Shown one piece after another: positions 55,344 through 63,914 of a stretch of 64,000 bases of DNA. The notes beneath the pieces are model-generated. The model was not told the DNA's origin. It saw only the letters and a program-made list of their open reading frames with translations, and did no database searches. The DNA comes from Halioglobus sp. (GTDB lineage: Bacteria > Pseudomonadota > Gammaproteobacteria > Pseudomonadales > Halieaceae), in contig JAGRIE010000020.1 in NCBI GenBank assembly GCA_020443425.1, positions 1 through 64,000 on the forward strand. Reading direction: 5' to 3'. The translations under genes and the position numbers were made by a program. Positions within the stretch are counted from its first letter, which is position 1, and every line of letters begins with the position of its first letter.

Positions 55344-57523
55344 ATGACTGATCGCATCCAACGGGGCGGCCTGCAGATTGCACCGGTTCTTCATCAACTG
55401 CTGGAGCAGGACATCGCCCCGGGTACCGGCGTCGCCGCGGACACATTCTGGCAGGGCCTGGAGTCGCTCGTGAGCACGCTGGGGCCGCGCAACCGCGAGC
55501 TGCTGCAGCGGCGCGAGCAGTTACAGGCGCAGATCGACGCCTGGCACCAGGCCAACCCGGGCCCCGGCTATGACCGCGCGGCCTACAAGGCCTTCCTCGA
55601 GGAGATCGGCTACCTGCTGCCCGAGGGGCCGGACTTCCAGATCAGCACCACCGGCGTCGACGAGGAAGTCGCCGTGCTCGCCGGGCCGCAACTGGTGGTG
55701 CCGGTGATGAATGCGCGCTACGCCCTGAACGCCGCCAACGCGCGCTGGGGCAGCCTGTACGATGCCCTGTACGGCACCGATGTGATTCCCGAGGACGGCG
55801 GCGCCGAGCGCGCCGGTGGCTACAACCCGGTGCGCGGCGACAAGGTGATCGCCTATGCCAAACAGTTCCTCGACAGCCACTGCCCGCTCGCCGCCGGCAG
55901 CCACGCCGCCGCCACCGCCTATGCGGTGGTCGACGGCGGCCTGCAGGTGACACTGGCCGGCGGCGAGACCACGGCACTGCGAGACCCCGGGCAACTGCGC
56001 GGCTACAGCGGTGATGCCGCCACCCCGGCCAGCGTACTGCTGCGCCATAACGGCCTGCATATCGAGCTCCAGATCGACCCGTCCAGCCCGATCGGCGCCA
56101 CCGATGCCGCCGGCGTCAAAGACGTGGTGCTGGAAGCGGCACTCACCACCATCCAGGACTGCGAGGACTCTGTCGCGGCCGTCGATGCCGAGGACAAGAC
56201 CGTTGCCTACGGCAACTGGCTGGGCCTGATGCGCGGCGACCTCAGCGACAACTTTGCCAAGGGCGGCAAGACGGTCACCCGCCGGCTCAACGCCGACCGC
56301 GAGTTCACCGCACCCGACGGCAGCGCGCTGGTACTGCCCGGCCGCAGCCTGATGTTTGTGCGCAATGTCGGGCACCTGATGACCACACCGGCAATTCTCG
56401 ATGCCAGCGGCGAGGAGATTCCCGAGGGTATTATGGACGGTTTGTTCACCGCCATGATCGCGCTGCACGACCTGAACAAAACTGCCGGCGACAGCCGCAA
56501 TTCCCGCCAGGGCAGCGTCTACATCGTGAAGCCGAAAATGCACGGACCGGAGGAAGTCGCCTTTACCTGCGAGCTGTTTGACCGCATCGAGGATATCCTC
56601 GGCCTCGCCCGCAACACCCTGAAAGTCGGCATCATGGACGAGGAGCGCCGCACCACCGTCAACCTCAAGGCGTGCATCCGCGCCGCTAAAGAGCGCCTGG
56701 TCTTTATCAACACCGGGTTCCTGGACCGCACCGGCGACGAGATCCATACCAGCATGAAGGCCGGCGCGATGACGCCCAAGGGCGCCATGAAGCAGGAGCC
56801 CTGGATCAACGCCTACGAGGACTGGAATGTCGATGTGGGCCTGCGCTGCGGCCTGCTGGGCAAGGCGCAGATCGGCAAGGGCTTTTTTGGGCCATGCCCG
56901 ACCTGATGGCCGATATGATGAAAAACAAGATCGCCCACCCGCTGGCGGGCGCCAGCACCGCCTGGGTGCCCTCGCCGACAGCGGCGACGCTGCACGCCAT
57001 TCACTACCATGAGGTGAATGTGGCCCAGCGCCAGCAGGACCTGCAGGGCCAGAGCCGCGCCTCACTGGACGACATCCTGTGCATCCCGCTGAAAGGCGCG
57101 GCCGGGCTCAGCGAGGCCGACATCCAGCGCGAGCTCGACAACAACGCCCAGGGCATCCTGGGCTATGTCGTGCGCTGGATCGACCAGGGCGTGGGCTGCT
57201 CCAAGGTACCGGACATCCACCACGTGGGCCTGATGGAGGACCGCGCCACCCTGCGCATCTCCAGCCAACATATCGCCAACTGGCTGCTGCACGGTGTGTG
57301 CACCAAAGCGCAGGTGCGCGAGACCCTGGAGCGCATGGCCGCCGTGGTGGACACGCAGAATGCCGGCGACCCGGCCTACCGCAATATGGCGCCGGACTTT
57401 GACGCCAGCATCGCCTTCCAGGCGGCCTGCGACCTGGTCTTCCTCGGCGAGGAGCAACCCAGCGGTTACACCGAGCCGGTACTGCACGCCCGCCGCCGGG
57501 AAGCGAAAGCGAGCCAGGCATAG
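55344..57523 (+). pseudogene. glcB: Malate synthase G, interrupted by a single frameshift
   Basis: The first frame (55344-56906) encodes MSG up to [12 protein letters not shown]; it then leaves frame at a run of six T (56883-56888) and stops. The remainder (about 56894-57523) continues in the -1 frame with [20 protein letters not shown] and the catalytic-base region [20 protein letters not shown]. Restoring one T would give a 726-residue protein, close to the 723 of E. coli. The N-terminal part keeps [19 protein letters not shown] and [16 protein letters not shown]. Malate synthase condenses glyoxylate and acetyl-CoA. The call is pseudogene or sequencing error; a programmed -1 shift on the T-run is possible but less likely. 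The ATG has AAAGAGG upstream. Confidence 0.85.
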
Positions 57524-57540: not shown

Positions 57541-57570
57541 AAAAAAGCCCGGTTTCAACCGGGCTTTTTT
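57541..57570. terminator. Bidirectional rho-independent terminator between glcB and pilA
   Basis: A perfect 12-bp stem, AAAAAAGCCCGG with CCGGGCTTTTTT, around a six-base loop. It has T-runs on both strands, so it can stop transcripts from glcB (plus) and from the pilin gene (minus). Confidence 0.92.
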
Positions 57571-57596: not shown

Positions 57597-58091
57597 CTAA
57601 CCACGGCAGTTGGCGGGCAGGTACTTGGCCGGTACTTTCGGTGTGTTGGCGTCACTCGCACCGTTAATACACTCCCAGGTCATGGTGCCATCAGCATTGG
57701 TGGAACCGGACAACTGGAACACCGCGATCGAATCGACACTCTTCTCGGAGCCGTCCCAGGCACTGGTAAACACCCCCGCGCCCAGATGTATCGGAGTGCC
57801 GGCCACCGGTGTGGTGGGATAGATATCCACTTTCCAGAGAATCTCGCTGTAGGCTATCCGGCTGGTGGTATTGATGCCGAAATTCTCTGTTTTGGGTGGG
57901 TATTTCCCATTCGCGGACACATACTCCGACACCGTGGTCTTCGCCTCCGCCAGCGCCGCCAGCGGCTCGGTCATCTTGGAGCGAACAATGTAATCCTGGT
58001 AGGCAGGCAGTGCGATGGCCGCCAGTATGCCGACGATAGCAATTACGATCATCAATTCTATCAGTGTAAAACCGCGTTCGAATGTCTTCAT
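57597..58091 (-). CDS. pilA: Type IV major pilin (PilA), copy 1
   Basis: A 164-residue type IVa pilin. A short basic leader (MKTFERG) is followed by [20 protein letters not shown] with Glu5 and [12 protein letters not shown] in the N-terminal alpha helix. The C-terminal disulfide (D-region) loop is between WEC and the Cys in LPANCRG. There is no terminal Ser of the kind used by TfpO. The ATG at 58091 fits the leader; the longer in-frame start is rejected. A sigma-54 promoter lies about 80-95 bases upstream. It sits just beyond a GT2 and two TMTC-like genes whose other side carries a second pilin copy. Confidence 0.95.
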
Positions 58092-58436
58092 GGTGGAGTC
58101 TCTCTTCTGGTTAGTTATAGGCCCACACATCCTTTGTATGCCCCGGAATGTGTGCGCTTACAGCAGAAAAGCAGATACCGTGCCAACTCAAAAAAAACGC
58201 CGGCATAAATTATTTTTTGTATATATATCAGATAGTTAGGGAAAAAAGGGGATCTGGCAGCGGGATCGGGACGACGCACAGGCAGGCCAGCGCGGCAACG
58301 GCGCAGATTCAGGCTATGACAATTTTTGTCACGTTCGGGCAATTGTTGCCCACCGCAGAGGCCGGCGGTGTCACTGCAGGACGCGGGAGCATTGCGGCGA
58401 TGCCAGCGTCCGGCCCCGGGTCGCCGGGCCGCGGTT
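58092..58436. other. 345-base AT-rich intergenic region carrying the pilA promoter
   Basis: Apart from the sigma-54 promoter at 58170-58185 it contains an AT-rich block at about 58188-58245 (A- and T-runs, TATATATATC), a likely binding region for IHF or an activator such as PilR. No ORF is supported. The right part (58250-58436) shows no further structure to me. Confidence 0.45.
58170..58185 (-). promoter_or_regulatory. Sigma-54 (-24/-12) promoter of pilA copy 1
   Basis: On the minus strand TGGCACG-N4-CTGCT matches the consensus TGGCACG-N4-TTGCA at all positions except the T at -14 and the final base. GG and GC have the correct spacing. It stands about 80 bases before the ATG. Pilin genes in Pseudomonas and relatives use such promoters under PilR. 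Confidence 0.8.
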
Positions 58437-59318
58437 TTACCCGGCGCGGCGATCGTTGGGGTTGGAGGTGTCCTTGAACTGCAGGTTGGTCAGCTGCTCG
58501 GAGAGCAGGCCGATCAGGAACATCACCATGCCCGCAAGTATCAGCAGGGTGCTCATATTGGTAAAGCGCCAGCCCGAACTGACAACGGTGAGGAAGTAAT
58601 TCAGAAAACCGAGCCCGGAGGTGATCACCGCCATCGGGAAATAGATTTTCAGCGGTGAATACAGCGTCCCCACCTTGAAGATAATGAGCAGGAAACGGAT
58701 GCCGTCCTTCATCATGCTGATATGGCTTTTGCCCAGCCGCCGGGACACGGTGATCGGCACGAAACCAACAGAGTAACCGGCGCGAAAAAACGCCATCGTC
58801 GACGTGGTGGGATAGCTGAAACCGTTCGGCAACAGGTACAGGAAACCGAGGAACTTGCGGCGGTTGGCGCAGCGGAAACCGGAGGTGAGATCGTCAATCC
58901 GGCGGTTGACCATCCAGCTGGCGAAGCGGTTGTAAAACGTGTTCGCACTCCAGCGTGCGACACTGGCCTGTGAATCGCGGCCGCTGCGCGCACCGACCAC
59001 CAGATCATAACCTTCGTCCATCTTGTCCAGCAGCCTGCCGACATCTGCCGCACTGTGCTGGCCGTCGCCGTCCATGAATACCAGGTTGTCTCCCTTGGCG
59101 GCGCGCGCCCCCGCTTTCACCGCGGCGCCATTGCCCTTGGAGTACGGGTGGGTGATCACGCGCACGCCGGCGTCCCGGCACACCTGCTCGGTGGCGTCGG
59201 TGGAGCCGTCGTTCACGACAATGATTTCGGCGTCGGGATACAGTTCCGTCAACTCGGGGAGCAGGACCGCGAGGCCCAGCTCCTCATTCTTTGCGGGTAT
59301 GATGATGGACAGTTTCAA
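58437..59318 (-). CDS. GT2 glycosyltransferase, polyprenyl-phosphate-sugar synthase type (DPMS/GtrB-like)
   Basis: A 293-residue protein. GT-A domain starts MKLSIIIPAKNEELGLAVLL; EIIVVNDGSTDATEQVC and the DxD-type motif VFMDGDGQHSAADVGRLLDK bind the sugar nucleotide. DLVVGARSGRDSQ and LTSGFRCANRR follow, as in dolichyl/polyprenyl-phosphate mannose synthases. Two C-terminal membrane helices (KIYFPMAVITSGLGFLNYFL; TLLILAGMVMFLIGLL) anchor it. Its product would be a polyprenyl-phosphate-linked hexose, the usual donor for GT-C transferases. It is the last gene after the two TMTC-like genes, five bases behind the second one. Confidence 0.85.
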   Translation of the reverse strand: MKLSIIIPAKNEELGLAVLLPELTELYPDAEIIVVNDGSTDATEQVCRDAGVRVITHPYSKGNGAAVKAGARAAKGDNLVFMDGDGQHSAADVGRLLDKMDEGYDLVVGARSGRDSQASVARWSANTFYNRFASWMVNRRIDDLTSGFRCANRRKFLGFLYLLPNGFSYPTTSTMAFFRAGYSVGFVPITVSRRLGKSHISMMKDGIRFLLIIFKVGTLYSPLKIYFPMAVITSGLGFLNYFLTVVSSGWRFTNMSTLLILAGMVMFLIGLLSEQLTNLQFKDTSNPNDRRAG

Positions 59319-59323
59319 AGGTA

Positions 59324-61249
59324 TTATTCTCCAGCTCCCGGGTTCTCCAGGTACAGTGACAAGGTCTGTTGCTCACCCACTGTCAACTTACCCTGCTGGT
59401 CCAGTTGTTGCAAAGCGTCGATGGCGGCCTGCGCGGTCTCCACCTTGCCCAGCGCCGTGGCAAAATGCAACTTCATCAGTAACCCGCGCGTGTTGTTCGG
59501 CGACATCGCCAGCAACTGCTCCGTGTAGGCGAGGGCATTATCATACCTTTGCAGGGTATTCTCCAGCACTGCCAGATTGGAATAGATATTGGCGGAGGCC
59601 TTGCGCCTGAAATCGTCCACCAGGAAGATTTCGGCAGCGCGGTCGGCAAACCGCACCCGGTCGAGCTGTGGACAGCGATCGTCCTGCAGCAGGCGTACCA
59701 GTGCCAGCAGCGTGGTGACAGAACTCAGTGGCCGGTCCGGGTTCTCCATGCCCAGTTCGTCGATCACCCCGGGGGCCACCGGTTCATTGGCGATACAGCT
59801 GAGGGCGAGGTTGCGCACCTGGTAATCGCCGTAGCGCTCCTGCAGGCCGGCGGCACCGGCGCTCGCCTCATAGGCGAGCAGGGAGTATTGGTGGGCGGCG
59901 TCGATCTGCCCGAGTCGCGCCATCTCGGTGGCCATATCGATATTCGCGCGCGCAGACATCGGGTGGGCGTTGAGCTGGCTCAGCAGCAGCAGCGAGCGGT
60001 TCGACCACACCTGCACCTGTGAACTGGTCAACATCGACAGCAGCAGCGCACACAGGCCGAGACAGACCAGCAGCGGCGCCGCCGGTTGCGGCCACTTCCG
60101 GGCAATGGCGGCGAACACGCCGCCCAGCGCCAGCACCAGCCCGATGGCAGGGAAATAATTGCGGTGCTCAAAATACAGTTCCAGCGGCCAGACGGTGGAT
60201 TCGATACTGTGGCCGATGACAAACCAGGCGATACCCAGGACAATCCAGCGGCCCGCCCGCCAGCGCAACAGCGCAGCGCAGACCACCGCCAGCAGCAGCC
60301 AGCCGAGCACCGCATAGAGTGTCGACGGCGGTTCCGACAGCGAGCGCGAGAGCACCACGTCATCCTGGTACAGCCCCATCCGGGCCACCTGCGGGTACAC
60401 CCATTGGTAGACATAGTCCCAGACAATGCGCGCCTCGGTGAGCAGGCGCTCCTCCAGCGTGAACGCGCGATTGCGAAAGCGCCCCACCAGGTAATCCCAC
60501 TGCAACACCAGCAGTGCCAGCACAGCGAGCGCACCGCCGGCGATGAGCCCGTAACTGCTGCGCTGCAGCCATGGGATCACAGCGCCGTCGCGACCGGCGC
60601 ACTGCAGCCAAAGCACTTCCAGCAGCAGTAGCACCGGCACCAGCACAATCGCGTTCTCCTTGGCCAGCAGCGCGATGACGAGGAACACCGGCACCGGCAG
60701 GAAACGCCAGGCGCCGGCCCTGCCGGCGATCAGCGCAAACCGCCAGTACAGGTAGCTGATAGCGCCCAGCAGCATGAAGAAGGTGGCCAGCATCGCCATC
60801 CGCTGCACCACGTAGAGTACAGTGCTGACCAGCAGTGGGTGCAGCAGCCAGATCGCGCCCAGCACCACCGCCAGCGCGCGATAACGCGGCACCTCCAGAT
60901 AGCGGAACAACAGCCAGAACAACCAGATGACCAGCCCGCCGTTGAGCAGGTGCAGAACAATATTGACCTTTTTACCGCCGCTGATGCCCTCGTCGAGGAA
61001 CATCTTCTCCAGCACAAAGCTGGTCATAGAGACCGAGCGCCCCAGGGTGCCGGATTTGTCCCCGAAGATATAATCAAACGCGAGTTCAGGCCGCGCTTTC
61101 AAGTCCTCGATCACCAGCACGCTGGAGCGGTCGTCCAGCAATTCGGGGCCGTGGATGCCCGGCCAGTAGAGCCACAGGCCGACCCACATCAGCAGGCCCA
61201 CGCACAGCAGCGCACCGGTAGTCGGCAGCAGTCGGGACAGGGCTGTCAC
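59324..61249 (-). CDS. TMTC/DUF1736-type GT-C membrane glycosyltransferase candidate with helical-repeat domain (B)
   Basis: A 641-residue protein with about 11-12 membrane helices and a C-terminal soluble domain. The first extracytoplasmic loop carries LLDDRSSVLVIED (acidic pair typical of GT-C catalytic sites). The TMTC/DUF1736 features are LNGGLVIWLFWLLF, LLHPLLVSTVLYVVQRMAML, LLAKENAIVLVPVLLLLEVL and YFEHRNYFPAIGLVL. Residues about 440-640 look like TPR-type helical hairpins (YDNALAYTEQLLAMSPNNTR). It overlaps the upstream paralogue by four bases (ATGA). Eukaryotic TMTCs are O-mannosyltransferases using dolichol-P-mannose; bacterial relatives are poorly characterised. A role in pilin O-glycosylation is inferred from position only. 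Confidence 0.75.
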   Translation of the reverse strand: MTALSRLLPTTGALLCVGLLMWVGLWLYWPGIHGPELLDDRSSVLVIEDLKARPELAFDYIFGDKSGTLGRSVSMTSFVLEKMFLDEGISGGKKVNIVLHLLNGGLVIWLFWLLFRYLEVPRYRALAVVLGAIWLLHPLLVSTVLYVVQRMAMLATFFMLLGAISYLYWRFALIAGRAGAWRFLPVPVFLVIALLAKENAIVLVPVLLLLEVLWLQCAGRDGAVIPWLQRSSYGLIAGGALAVLALLVLQWDYLVGRFRNRAFTLEERLLTEARIVWDYVYQWVYPQVARMGLYQDDVVLSRSLSEPPSTLYAVLGWLLLAVVCAALLRWRAGRWIVLGIAWFVIGHSIESTVWPLELYFEHRNYFPAIGLVLALGGVFAAIARKWPQPAAPLLVCLGLCALLLSMLTSSQVQVWSNRSLLLLSQLNAHPMSARANIDMATEMARLGQIDAAHQYSLLAYEASAGAAGLQERYGDYQVRNLALSCIANEPVAPGVIDELGMENPDRPLSSVTTLLALVRLLQDDRCPQLDRVRFADRAAEIFLVDDFRRKASANIYSNLAVLENTLQRYDNALAYTEQLLAMSPNNTRGLLMKLHFATALGKVETAQAAIDALQQLDQQGKLTVGEQQTLSLYLENPGAGE

Positions 61250-63216
61250 TGTTCGAACAGGGCCTTCACAACCGGCAGTTCGCGCCGCAGCGGATCACGC
61301 CGCATCCACTCCCGTATCGACTCATAGGTGCGGTCCAACTGGTCGTTGCCATAGTACTGCGTCAGGTTGACCGCTGCCGCCGTACTGCGCGCGTTCCGCT
61401 GCGCGGCCTGCTGCAACTGCGGCAACAATGCGGCTTTGCGGGTGGGTGCTGTCGCCGTCACGAAGCGGTATTGCAGGCCGACAATCTCTGCCCGGTGCGG
61501 GTAGCGCGCGACCAGTTGCGCCAACAGTTCATCCACGCTGGGCCGGTCCGCCGCCGCGGACGGCGACAGTGAGAAGTCCACCAGCGCCGTCAGCGCGGTC
61601 CGGTCCGAGGACTGTAAACGGCGGGTCTGTGCCAACTCAATCATCGTGTCCAACCAGTTGTTTTCGTCTGCCAAGCCGGGAAAATACAGGGTATCGAGTT
61701 GATATAACATCACCAGTGCCGAGAAATTGCGCGGGTCCAGCTGTCGCATCCTCTCAAAATAGCCGCGCGCAGCCACTGCCAGCGCGCGCTGCTCCTCCTC
61801 ATCCAGCCCCAGCGCCTGTGACTGCTGGAAGCGTTTGAACAGGGCATTACCGTAGAAAAAATTGGCCCGCGCCGACTGCGGGTGATTGATCACATTGAAG
61901 CGCGCCAGTTGCGTTTCATCGCTCCAGGCATTCGTGCGAACCAGCAGCAGTGCCAGCAGCACTGCGAGCACACCCGCCACCGCCATACGCAGGCGCAGCT
62001 GCCTGACCCGCGCGACACCCTTCACCATCCCCAGCGCCGCCAGCGCGGCCAGACCCACACTGGGCAGGTAATTGCGGTGTTCAAACACCATCTCCAGCGG
62101 CAGCACTGTCGACTCCATGCTGTGCGCCACCAGGTAGAACAGGAACGCGAAGGCCAGCATGGGGTAGCGCCGGTGCCACAGCAGGCAGGCACCCAGCACA
62201 GCTGCCCAGCCCAGCAGTGCAACAGCGGTGGACAGTGGCGACAACAGGCTGCGGGAGATGGCGATATCGTCGTGGAAAAAACCCATGCTGGTGATATTGG
62301 GTACCAGCAGCCAGCTGAGGTACTGCCACAGCGCCCTGCCCTGCGTGAACAGCCGCTCGTGCAGCGTGAACTCACGGCCGCCGTAGCGGCCCATCAGGAC
62401 CTCGGGTGCCAGCAGGTAGATGGCGCCCACCAGCAGCACCGGCAGTACCAGCGCCAGCCATGCCAGCGCGACCAGAGCGCGCTGCGAACGGCCAGCCCAG
62501 ATGCCGCGAAACAGTGTGACTTCGACAACGGCAAGCAGCCACGGCAACAGTGCGCCGTTCTCCTTGGACAGCACGGCGGCCAGACCGAGCAGCGCCAGCC
62601 ACAGCGCGGCGGCGATGACCTCCCCAGCGCCAGCGCCGCGCTCCACCCAGCGCAGGCGGTAGCGCGTAAACACCCACAGGCCGGCGAGGGTGAACAACGC
62701 AGACAACTGCGCCATGCGCTGCACCGCGTACAACACCGTCGACACCTGTATCGGGTGCAGCAGCCACAGCGCGGCCGCGAGCAGTGCCACCACGCGGCAC
62801 TGGTAGTCATCCAGGCGGTACACGCGCAGCGCCGGGGCCTGCAGCAGCGCCCGGGTAAACTGGTACAACAACACACCGACCAACAGGTGGATTGCGAGAT
62901 TGGTCGCCTTCAGAGAGAACGGCGTGAAACCGCCCGCGGCGACATGGTTGAGGGCGAACGTCAACATCGCCACCGGTCGATACAGCACACCGGAATCAGC
63001 ACTCAGGGATGCGGTGCGCCAGTCATCGAACCGGGCACCGTCGATCTGCACGCGCTCATTGCCGAGCAGATTGGGTTCGTCGTCAAAGAACAGCGGGCCG
63101 TGCAGCGCGACGCCGTAGGCCAGTGTGCACAGCAGGACGACAAGCAGCGTAAAACACAGGAGTAAACCGCGATCGGCCTTATCGGGGTGTGGGGCAGGTA
63201 CGGCAGGCTCTGGCAT
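61246..63216 (-). CDS. TMTC/DUF1736-type GT-C membrane glycosyltransferase candidate with helical-repeat domain (A)
   Basis: A 656-residue paralogue of the next gene. It has a short cytoplasmic start, one helix, then a loop with the acidic motif LFFDDEPNLLGNERV, FSLKATNLAIHLLVGVLLYQ, LHPIQVSTVLYAVQRMAQLS, LSKENGALLPWLLAVVEVTL and VFEHRNYLPSVGLAALAALG, all family landmarks. The C-terminal 220 residues form TPR-like helices (ARANFFYGNALFKRF; AARGYFERMRQLDPRNF). Two non-identical copies in tandem suggest different acceptors or linkages. ATG 63216; the pilin copy 2 terminator lies just upstream, so this gene is probably served by its own promoter or by readthrough. Confidence 0.75.
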   Translation of the reverse strand: MPEPAVPAPHPDKADRGLLLCFTLLVVLLCTLAYGVALHGPLFFDDEPNLLGNERVQIDGARFDDWRTASLSADSGVLYRPVAMLTFALNHVAAGGFTPFSLKATNLAIHLLVGVLLYQFTRALLQAPALRVYRLDDYQCRVVALLAAALWLLHPIQVSTVLYAVQRMAQLSALFTLAGLWVFTRYRLRWVERGAGAGEVIAAALWLALLGLAAVLSKENGALLPWLLAVVEVTLFRGIWAGRSQRALVALAWLALVLPVLLVGAIYLLAPEVLMGRYGGREFTLHERLFTQGRALWQYLSWLLVPNITSMGFFHDDIAISRSLLSPLSTAVALLGWAAVLGACLLWHRRYPMLAFAFLFYLVAHSMESTVLPLEMVFEHRNYLPSVGLAALAALGMVKGVARVRQLRLRMAVAGVLAVLLALLLVRTNAWSDETQLARFNVINHPQSARANFFYGNALFKRFQQSQALGLDEEEQRALAVAARGYFERMRQLDPRNFSALVMLYQLDTLYFPGLADENNWLDTMIELAQTRRLQSSDRTALTALVDFSLSPSAAADRPSVDELLAQLVARYPHRAEIVGLQYRFVTATAPTRKAALLPQLQQAAQRNARSTAAAVNLTQYYGNDQLDRTYESIREWMRRDPLRRELPVVKALFEQ

Positions 63217-63262
63217 ACGGCTTCGCAGAATCAGTTGAGTCGTTGCAGAGTGTACAACGAAA

Positions 63263-63286
63263 AAAAGCCCGGCATGCCGGGCTTTT
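63263..63286 (-). terminator. Rho-independent terminator of pilin copy 2
   Basis: A perfect 24-base palindrome (AAAAGCCCGGCA / TGCCGGGCTTTT). On the minus strand the stem is followed by a T-run (complement of 63261-63266). It lies 27 bases after the pilin stop codon and before the TMTC-like gene A. Its stem is nearly the same as that of the pilA copy 1 terminator. Confidence 0.85.
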
Positions 63287-63312
63287 CATTGTCGCTTCGT
63301 GCTTAGGTTGTA

Positions 63313-63818
63313 TTAACCGCGGCAGTTGGCTGGCAGGTACTTGGTGGGGATCGGGTCGGCTTTCGCGTTGCCTTCACCGGGCAGGCAAGTCCAGCTCATG
63401 GTGCCGTCCGCATTGGTGCTACCAGACAACTGGAAGCTCAGAGTTTCACCGTCAGTTTTCTCACCACCGTCCCAGACACTGGTGAAGACCCTGGCAACAA
63501 TGTATACCGGCTCGCCCGCAGTCAGAGATGAAGGAAGCACGTCCAGTTCATTGGTGATGTCGCTGGTGCTGATGCGGTTGGAGGTGTTGATACCAAAGGC
63601 AGTCGCGTCAGTTGTAGGGAAACGTCCGTTAGCCGCTACATACTCAGCAACCGTTGTCTTGGCTTCAGCCAGTGCAGCCAGCGGCTCAGACACTTTGGAA
63701 CGCACAATGTAGTCCTGGTAAGCCGGCAGCGCGATGGCCGCCAGAATGCCGACGATCGCGATAACGATCAAAGTTCGATAAGGGTGAAACCCTGTTGAGC
63801 TTTTTTCTGCATAGTCAT
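63313..63818 (-). pseudogene. pilA: Type IV major pilin, copy 2, with a one-base deletion after the prepilin site
   Basis: Start ATG 63818 follows GGAGAAG, and the frame reads MTMQKKAQQGFTLIEL and then hits TGA. Inserting one base restores [21 protein letters not shown] and 168 residues in total; the remaining frame encodes an intact pilin body ([32 protein letters not shown]) with the disulfide loop WTC to LPANCRG. The 506-base span is one short of a multiple of three. The longer frame open to 63831 begins with a nonsense leader lacking the cleavage motif. Either a recently inactivated paralogue or a base error. It has its own sigma-54 promoter and terminator. Confidence 0.85.
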
Positions 63819-63898
63819 GATACTTCTCCACTTTAAGTTAACACATGCGCCGGCGGTTGTTTGCCCATCAAGCGCAAGCCGTTTGCACAGTGAGAGAG

Positions 63899-63914
63899 AG
63901 CAGGTTGCGTGCCA
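63899..63914 (-). promoter_or_regulatory. Sigma-54 (-24/-12) promoter of pilin copy 2
   Basis: Minus-strand TGGCACG-N4-CTGCT is the same motif as at 58170-58185 (invariant GG and GC correctly spaced). It stands about 80-95 bases before the start codon of pilin copy 2, the same distance as in copy 1. Confidence 0.8.

Follow-up and report, generated by a model that had tools for sequence, protein, structure and literature searches.

Gene content of the pilin-flanked island

We analysed positions 1 to 64,000 of contig JAGRIE010000020.1 from Halioglobus sp. (assembly GCA_020443425.1), hereafter the window, and focused on an island near its right end in which two type IV pilin genes enclose two genes encoding GT-C-type membrane proteins, T1 and T2, and one encoding a GT2 glycosyltransferase. 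All five genes were confirmed and lie on the minus strand in the order pilin, T1, T2, GT2 and pilin (Table 1). The initial annotation of the window had described two paralogous pilins around a tight three-gene run. Indeed, T1 overlaps T2 by 4 bases and a 5-base gap lies between T2 and GT2. An alignment of the pilins shows 62% identity over 159 residues, with both matching the Pfam family Pilin (PF00114) and both ending in CRG. A search with the strict sigma-54 pattern TGGCA[CT][GA]-N4-[TC]TGC returned only two matches in the 64-kb window (63914 and 58185, minus strand), one 5' of each pilin gene, in agreement with the sigma-54 pilins of that annotation.

Table 1 Features of the island and their positions in the window
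Feature	Position	Strand	Remarks
T1 (P0001, 656 aa)	61246..63216	-	GT-C membrane domain ~1-440, followed by C-terminal TPR-like helices
T2 (P0002, 641 aa, GTG start)	59324..61249	-	T1 paralogue
GT2, polyprenyl-phosphate-sugar-synthase-like (P0003, 293 aa, TTG start)	58437..59318	-	PF00535, E 5.6e-30
Upstream type IV pilin gene, interrupted by a frame break	63313..63818	-	P0005 (63313-63831) against PF00114, E 8.6e-17
Downstream type IV pilin gene (P0004), intact	57597..58091	-	PF00114, E 1.2e-13; N_methyl, E 2.9e-9
Sigma-54-like -24/-12 element, TGGCACG-N4-CTGCT, 5' of upstream pilin	63899..63914	-	Strict pattern match
Sigma-54-like -24/-12 element, 5' of downstream pilin	58170..58185	-	Strict pattern match
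Intrinsic-terminator-like stem-loop and T run, between upstream pilin and T1	63259..63286	-	By eye
Intrinsic-terminator-like stem-loop and T run, after downstream pilin	57541..57570	-	By eye

T1 and T2 are GT-C/TPR proteins by prediction

T1 and T2 share 30% identity (BLASTP, E 3e-52). The predicted structure of T1, with a predicted local distance difference test (pLDDT) score of 93, consists of a GT-C membrane domain and tetratricopeptide repeat (TPR)-like helices, and its best structural matches found with VIA-align were an oligosaccharyltransferase (STT3), ArnT and Pmt4; an earlier single-sequence AlphaFold2 model (pLDDT 50.9) was set aside as poor. This high-confidence model, with a multi-helix membrane domain of the STT3/ArnT/PMT type, upholds the GT-C fold assigned initially. 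The first external loop carries an acidic pair, D45 and D46, which is invariant in 39 aligned members of the family (hereafter T proteins) and conserved at 0.99 and 0.98, respectively, in 102 members. In the family alignment, T2 retains the DD, KE and EHRNY motifs.

The initial description of both proteins as TMTC/DUF1736-like does not extend to membership, because neither P0001 nor P0002 matched the DUF1736 profile (PF08409) at E values up to 1; "TMTC" therefore denotes a resemblance of T1 and T2, not membership. Likewise, DUF1736 was absent from all 20 families matched by 39 N-terminal members at E values up to 10, and was not among the matches listed (25 of 68 families) for 68 full-length members. 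It was also found neither in the genome of this strain nor in 299 genomes of the phylum, but the control genomes were empty too, so these genome-wide searches do not show absence. P0001 had no Pfam match at all, and those of P0002 were all sub-threshold and mainly to TPR families (TPR_19, E 8e-4, under the cut-off). A full-length T profile matched 378 sequences in the PDB, the best 60 of which hit the TPR part. The core membrane-domain family of the T proteins is nameless in the Pfam and NCBIfam libraries. A Wzy-type polysaccharide polymerase and a pure TPR scaffold were also considered as identities for the T proteins and rejected.

The GT2 protein matches PF00535, and its relatives in the PDB are sll0501, an ArnC-type transferase and dolichol-P-mannose synthase, consistent with its initial description as similar to dolichol-P-mannose synthase and GtrB. 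D83 and D85 are invariant in its family alignment (29 sequences, mean column identity 63%), and two hydrophobic segments were recognized by eye at the C-terminus. The best NCBIfam match, AglJ, scored 113 bits against a cut-off of 325 bits, far too low for the sugar to be named.

T genes are associated with pilin and GT2 genes

We searched 274 genomes spread across the class, including that of this strain, with T1 and found T homologues in 84 (~31%). From these, 99 loci were taken besides our own (L051), which does not enter the counts; three weak or fragmentary places (G120:C108, G061:C3 around 373912 and G183:C99) were passed over. Of the 99, 97 contained a T open reading frame (ORF), the others (L130 and L131) having none over the threshold. 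Pilin ORFs were called by a regular expression for class III signal segments, aided by BLAST to P0004. Of the 72 clusters that had a long T and 1 kb or more of upstream sequence and so could be assessed, 53 had a same-strand class III pilin ORF no more than 3 kb upstream, and a P0003-like GT2 gene lay within 1.5 kb downstream in 58 of the 84 clusters with at least 1.2 kb downstream; both were present in 37 of 65 clusters assessable for both. Pilin ORFs numbered 81 in the 318 kb within 2 kb of T and 4 in the 783 kb between 2 and 8 kb, an approximately fifty-fold enrichment, and within 3 kb of T they were on the same strand in 81 cases and on the opposite strand in 1.

The GT2 gene also tracks T across whole genomes: among the 274, 74 had both T and a close relative of P0003 (E values up to 1e-60), 10 had T without GT2, 2 had GT2 without T and 188 had neither. 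A second set consisted of the best 80 of at least 588 confirmed stretches and is therefore skewed to close relatives; here a pilin was found upstream in 62/70 loci, a GT2 gene in 52/71 and both in 40/61. Across 45 loci, the pairwise distances of T, of GT2 and of pilin are correlated (Mantel r 0.65-0.73; partial r 0.27 between T and pilin when controlled for GT2), a correlation that shared descent alone would yield and that is not taken as proof of coevolution.

Three T genes stand in tandem at some loci (L085, L153 and L164), and L095 has four T ORFs, some of them fragmentary; such tandems would be in keeping with a glycan code written in steps or at several sites. Other members have no nearby pilin-like ORF (L044, L098, L111, L112, L121-L124, L126 and L128); these may act on pilins whose genes lie elsewhere, or on different acceptors.

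The island lies in a type IV pilus locus

The loci nearest to the island are from Halioglobus, with 73% and 69% identity. Cultured bacteria that carry this island too are Haliea salexigens (L139), Pseudohalioglobus lutimaris (L138) and Haliea alexandrii (L140). In Halioglobus japonicus (L133), malate synthase G flanks the island on one side, and on the other stands a divergent run comprising a 167-aa ORF without a Pfam match, a pilin gene and PilB-, PilC- and PilD-type genes. On our contig, a third, divergent type IV pilin gene was found just past the right end of the window (L051:10842-11324, i.e. ~64842-65324; PF00114, E 2.2e-14), and the divergent pilin in the corresponding place in L133 precedes the PilB-, PilC- and PilD-type genes. 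The surroundings of the island are a type IV pilus locus.

Of the two flanking pilin genes the downstream one is intact, and its start, by reading the sequence, is better set at ATG 58091 than at 58130. Read from ATG 63818, the upstream gene reaches a stop after 16 codons, within the conserved N-terminal segment, and the remainder is open in another frame; relatives have intact pilins at this position. Malate synthase G is also split in the window, into overlapping ORFs (55344-56906 and 56894-57523) near a T6 run (56883-56888), and is a single 725-aa gene in L133. The two frame breaks, together with the intact gene of the relative, suggest, without proving, indel errors of this assembly.

T proteins form a separate branch among GT-C/TPR proteins

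In a tree of 122 rows built by a quick method from the first 470 residues of each protein, the 103 T rows form one side of a branch with a Shimodaira-Hasegawa-like approximate likelihood ratio test (SH-aLRT) value of 98. T1 and T2 each have a clade of their own (20 and 18 rows, SH-aLRT 99 for both), composed of Halieaceae or unplaced gammaproteobacterial records. Of 293 genomes sampled from the order, 61 matched the T membrane-domain profile, a part of them solely via a divergent group whose members mostly resemble generic bacterial GT-C/TPR proteins. Eight such generic proteins aligned with T at a profile-profile probability of 99.9 (E 2.2e-33, 374 columns). Two of ten scanned divergent proteins came just below the cut-off of PMT_2 (PF13231; 25.3 and 24.7 versus 26.1 bits), which hints at a link between this group and protein mannosyltransferases. 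Two genomes of the order (L234 and L236) have a glycosyltransferase cluster in which several generic GT-C/TPR genes and additional GT2 genes stand no more than ~10 kb from a pilin-linked T gene.

We further inspected 50 pilin loci of Pseudomonadaceae. One (L291) has a true T gene with an adjoining GT2 gene. At four others (L289, L309, L313 and L316) the pilin is followed by a ~640-aa GT-C/TPR-like protein, which matched the T profile directly in three cases; the L289 protein was grouped by alignment only (37% identical to that of L313). The ~640-aa type also occurs in another family of the order (L245). At L335, L337 and L338, a ~543-aa protein that matches the T profile stands beside the pilin. 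Compared with T by profile, the ~640-aa type gave a probability of 99.1 and the ~543-aa type gave an hhalign probability of 98.8 (E 1.3e-16), as distant homologues. No P0003-like GT2 gene was present in the fetched stretches of the seven Pseudomonadaceae loci or at L245. Both types occupy the position adjoining pilA that is given for tfpW in PMC12369383. By sequence and position, the ~543-aa proteins are candidate TfpW proteins, and the ~640-aa pilin-adjacent lineage may be undescribed. A search with the L313 protein returned nothing in 18 genomes of genus g474, and ALO (PF04030), used as a marker of the D-arabinofuranose pathway, did not separate the genomes with candidate TfpW proteins from the others.

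Discussion

Given the gene order, the conserved motifs, the predicted fold of T1 and the association of T with pilin and GT2 genes, we consider it likely that the island is a pilin O-glycosylation module with a polyprenyl-phosphate-sugar donor. The following scheme is inferred throughout, from catalysis, the sugar and its flipping to the acceptor residues and the separate roles of T1 and T2. GT2 would load one sugar onto polyprenyl phosphate at the cytoplasmic face, some flippase would turn the lipid-phosphate-sugar over, and in the periplasm T1 and T2 would pass the sugar on to side-chain hydroxyls of the neighbouring pilins, before or during pilus assembly. Since T1 and T2 are kept as separate conserved orthologues in Halieaceae, their jobs probably differ, in serving different sites or different pilins or in adding the first and second sugar. 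A C-terminal Ser or Thr was found in only 11 of 65 T-linked upstream pilins, which makes a C-terminal acceptor like that of TfpO or TfpM unlikely; the glycosylation sites are therefore probably internal in the pilin. The glycosylation reading of the initial annotation is retained in part: the pilin and GT2 association and the GT-C fold support it, with activity, sugar and site as parts of the proposal, and support is lacking for DUF1736 membership and for a new kind of enzyme.

Several observations weigh against this reading. One of the two pilins in the window has a broken frame, and a terminator-like stem-loop stands between the upstream pilin and T1. Of 17 loci of relatives, only 5 (L132-L135 and L144) have a strict sigma-54 match at a comparable distance, a looser form adding two further loci among the same 17. 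The island contains no flippase gene, GtrA included. The genome of this strain has two GtrA matches, both on other contigs, and among 12 T-bearing genomes eight had a match at E values up to 0.001 (seven above the cut-off) and four had none. A nearby pilin-like ORF was absent from 19 of 72 clusters even with a relaxed motif and a pilin was missing from 8 of 70 loci of the second set, so that homologues scattered without pilins, named by the initial annotation as a sign against its proposal, were the minority. A GT2 gene within 1.5 kb downstream was missing in 26/84 and 19/71 cases in the first and second sets, respectively. The family is also patchy even at close range: in the order sample, the single further genome from this genus and two from this family (G737, G591 and G812) gave no match. 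For the T membrane domain, any one Pfam or NCBIfam family matched at most 2 of 39 members, with best E values of 0.0022 and 0.0039 that we attribute to chance. Neither P0001 nor the membrane-domain profile found a sequence in the PDB, and a shared GT-C fold does not prove activity.

The lack of a nearby pilin in part of the clusters would also suit a Gtr-like role, in which the target of T1 and T2 is some other periplasmic glycan, for instance O-antigen, and the pilins are neighbours by coincidence. GT2 and GT-C proteins form the core of three-component glycan-modifying systems according to PMC11127046, and seven pilin-less clusters have a P0003-like GT2 gene on the same strand (L046, L048 at ~2 kb, L059, L060, L076, L085 and L119), with one more on the other strand at L121. 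Nevertheless, we regard this role as unlikely in view of the enrichment and strand bias of pilins around T, the missing GtrA and the PilB-PilC-PilD-type locus in which a close relative has the island. Pilin adjacency by itself fits an enzyme as well as a helper, and TfpY-like proteins are pilA-linked helpers according to PMC11841053; the T proteins could accordingly be non-enzymatic assembly helpers like TfpY/FimB whose TPR part binds pilins. The predicted GT-C fold, with conserved charged residues where binding of lipid-phosphate-sugar and metal would be expected, and the tight coupling to a sugar synthase make such a function very improbable.

Two known kinds of pilin glycosyltransferase were also weighed. 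The T proteins might be TfpW orthologues attaching D-arabinofuranose, as they occupy the same place beside pilA and the proteins found there at L335, L337 and L338 are their distant homologues. This is quite unlikely, because T stands on its own branch apart from those proteins and usually comes with a GT2 synthase, of which none was found in the fetched flanks of the candidates, and because D-arabinofuranose is reported in PMC12369383 to be made by a separate ubiA-containing cluster. The T proteins might also be O-oligosaccharyltransferases of the PglL/TfpO/TfpM/PglS type using glycans on undecaprenyl pyrophosphate; such enzymes can be pilin-linked according to PMC12645811, and Wzy/WaaL-looking genes were seen by eye beside Pseudomonadaceae pilins. 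With no Wzy_C/WaaL-type Pfam match in P0001 or P0002, structural matches of T1 to GT-C proteins of the STT3, ArnT and Pmt type, and the scarcity of pilins ending in Ser or Thr, we give this identity next to no chance.

In the reading that we prefer, pilin O-glycosylation by a GT-C protein with its own lipid-sugar synthase, the kind of enzyme is not new. The initial annotation knew of no description of such a class of pilin glycosyltransferase, but TfpW is already published as a pilin-linked GT-C enzyme, and the proteins in the tfpW position of Pseudomonadaceae are distantly homologous to T. The island therefore represents a large, apparently undescribed variant of known pilin-linked GT-C glycosylation rather than a new category; among openly licensed PMC papers we found no description of the T family or of a pilin/GT-C-TPR/GT2 module. 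More tentatively, T may be a large undescribed class of pilin O-glycosyltransferases, possibly the commonest pilin-modifying system of Gammaproteobacteria, organized as a compact module with its own synthase, sharing its bacterial GT-C/TPR ancestry with the TMTC-like enzymes and using tandem T1/T2 as a two-step or two-site sugar code on adjacent pilins, a proposal that we find possible while leaning somewhat against it.

Pili act in adhesion and as motors, and phages use them as receptors; PMC11841053 reports that the sugars on pilins help Pseudomonas to evade pilus phages. If our interpretation is true, many environmental bacteria sugar-coat their pili by a system for which, as far as we found, no assay is on record. 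The compact pilin/GT-C/GT2 set could be tested in a laboratory strain, and the T proteins offer a bacterial model for TMTC-shaped GT-C/TPR enzymes.

Comparison with known systems

The closest parallel is TfpW of the group IV pilin loci of Pseudomonas paraeruginosa, an arabinosyltransferase that moves D-arabinofuranose to Thr or Ser of the pilin and that the title of a 2008 paper reportedly assigns to the GT-C family. According to PMC11841053 and PMC12369383, TfpW is encoded beside pilA and acts on that pilin, and T is likewise a GT-C gene adjoining a pilin gene. The candidate TfpW proteins of Pseudomonadaceae also have a TPR-like tail, as judged by eye. T differs in its separate branch, its usual GT2 partner and its occasional tandem arrangement, a comparison made via positional candidates for TfpW. 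TfpO, TfpM, PglL and PglS also glycosylate pilins, as is predicted for T, and their donors are undecaprenyl pyrophosphate-linked oligosaccharides. TfpO, TfpM and PglS are often encoded near their target and this group has WaaL-like domains, as described in PMC12645811, whereas T has no such domain and T-linked pilins mostly lack the C-terminal Ser or Thr acceptor of TfpO and TfpM.

With the Gtr systems (GtrA, GtrB and a GT-C protein), the island shares a GtrB-like polyprenyl-phosphate-sugar synthase and a GT-C transferase, but it has no GtrA and the usual neighbour of T is a pilin instead of a glycan locus. The generic bacterial GT-C/TPR proteins (L232-L241, L243 and L244) have the same architecture as T; in contrast, they fall outside the T branch, and those scanned have no directly adjoining pilin-motif ORF. 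The eukaryotic O-mannosyltransferases TMTC1-4 (GT105, DUF1736) similarly combine a GT-C domain with subsequent TPRs. Their published motifs are M1 DD, M2 SHKSYRP, M3 RxD, M4 KE(T/Q)xxT, M5 DW and M7 ERxxY (PMC7801869). Compared with these by eye, T differs in detail at M2 (RP), M3 (QRM) and M7 (EHRNY), DW was not seen, and the acceptors differ as well as the DUF1736 match; nevertheless, the DD of the first loop, the conserved KE pair and an E-x-R-x-Y-like motif are present in T in the same order as in TMTC proteins.

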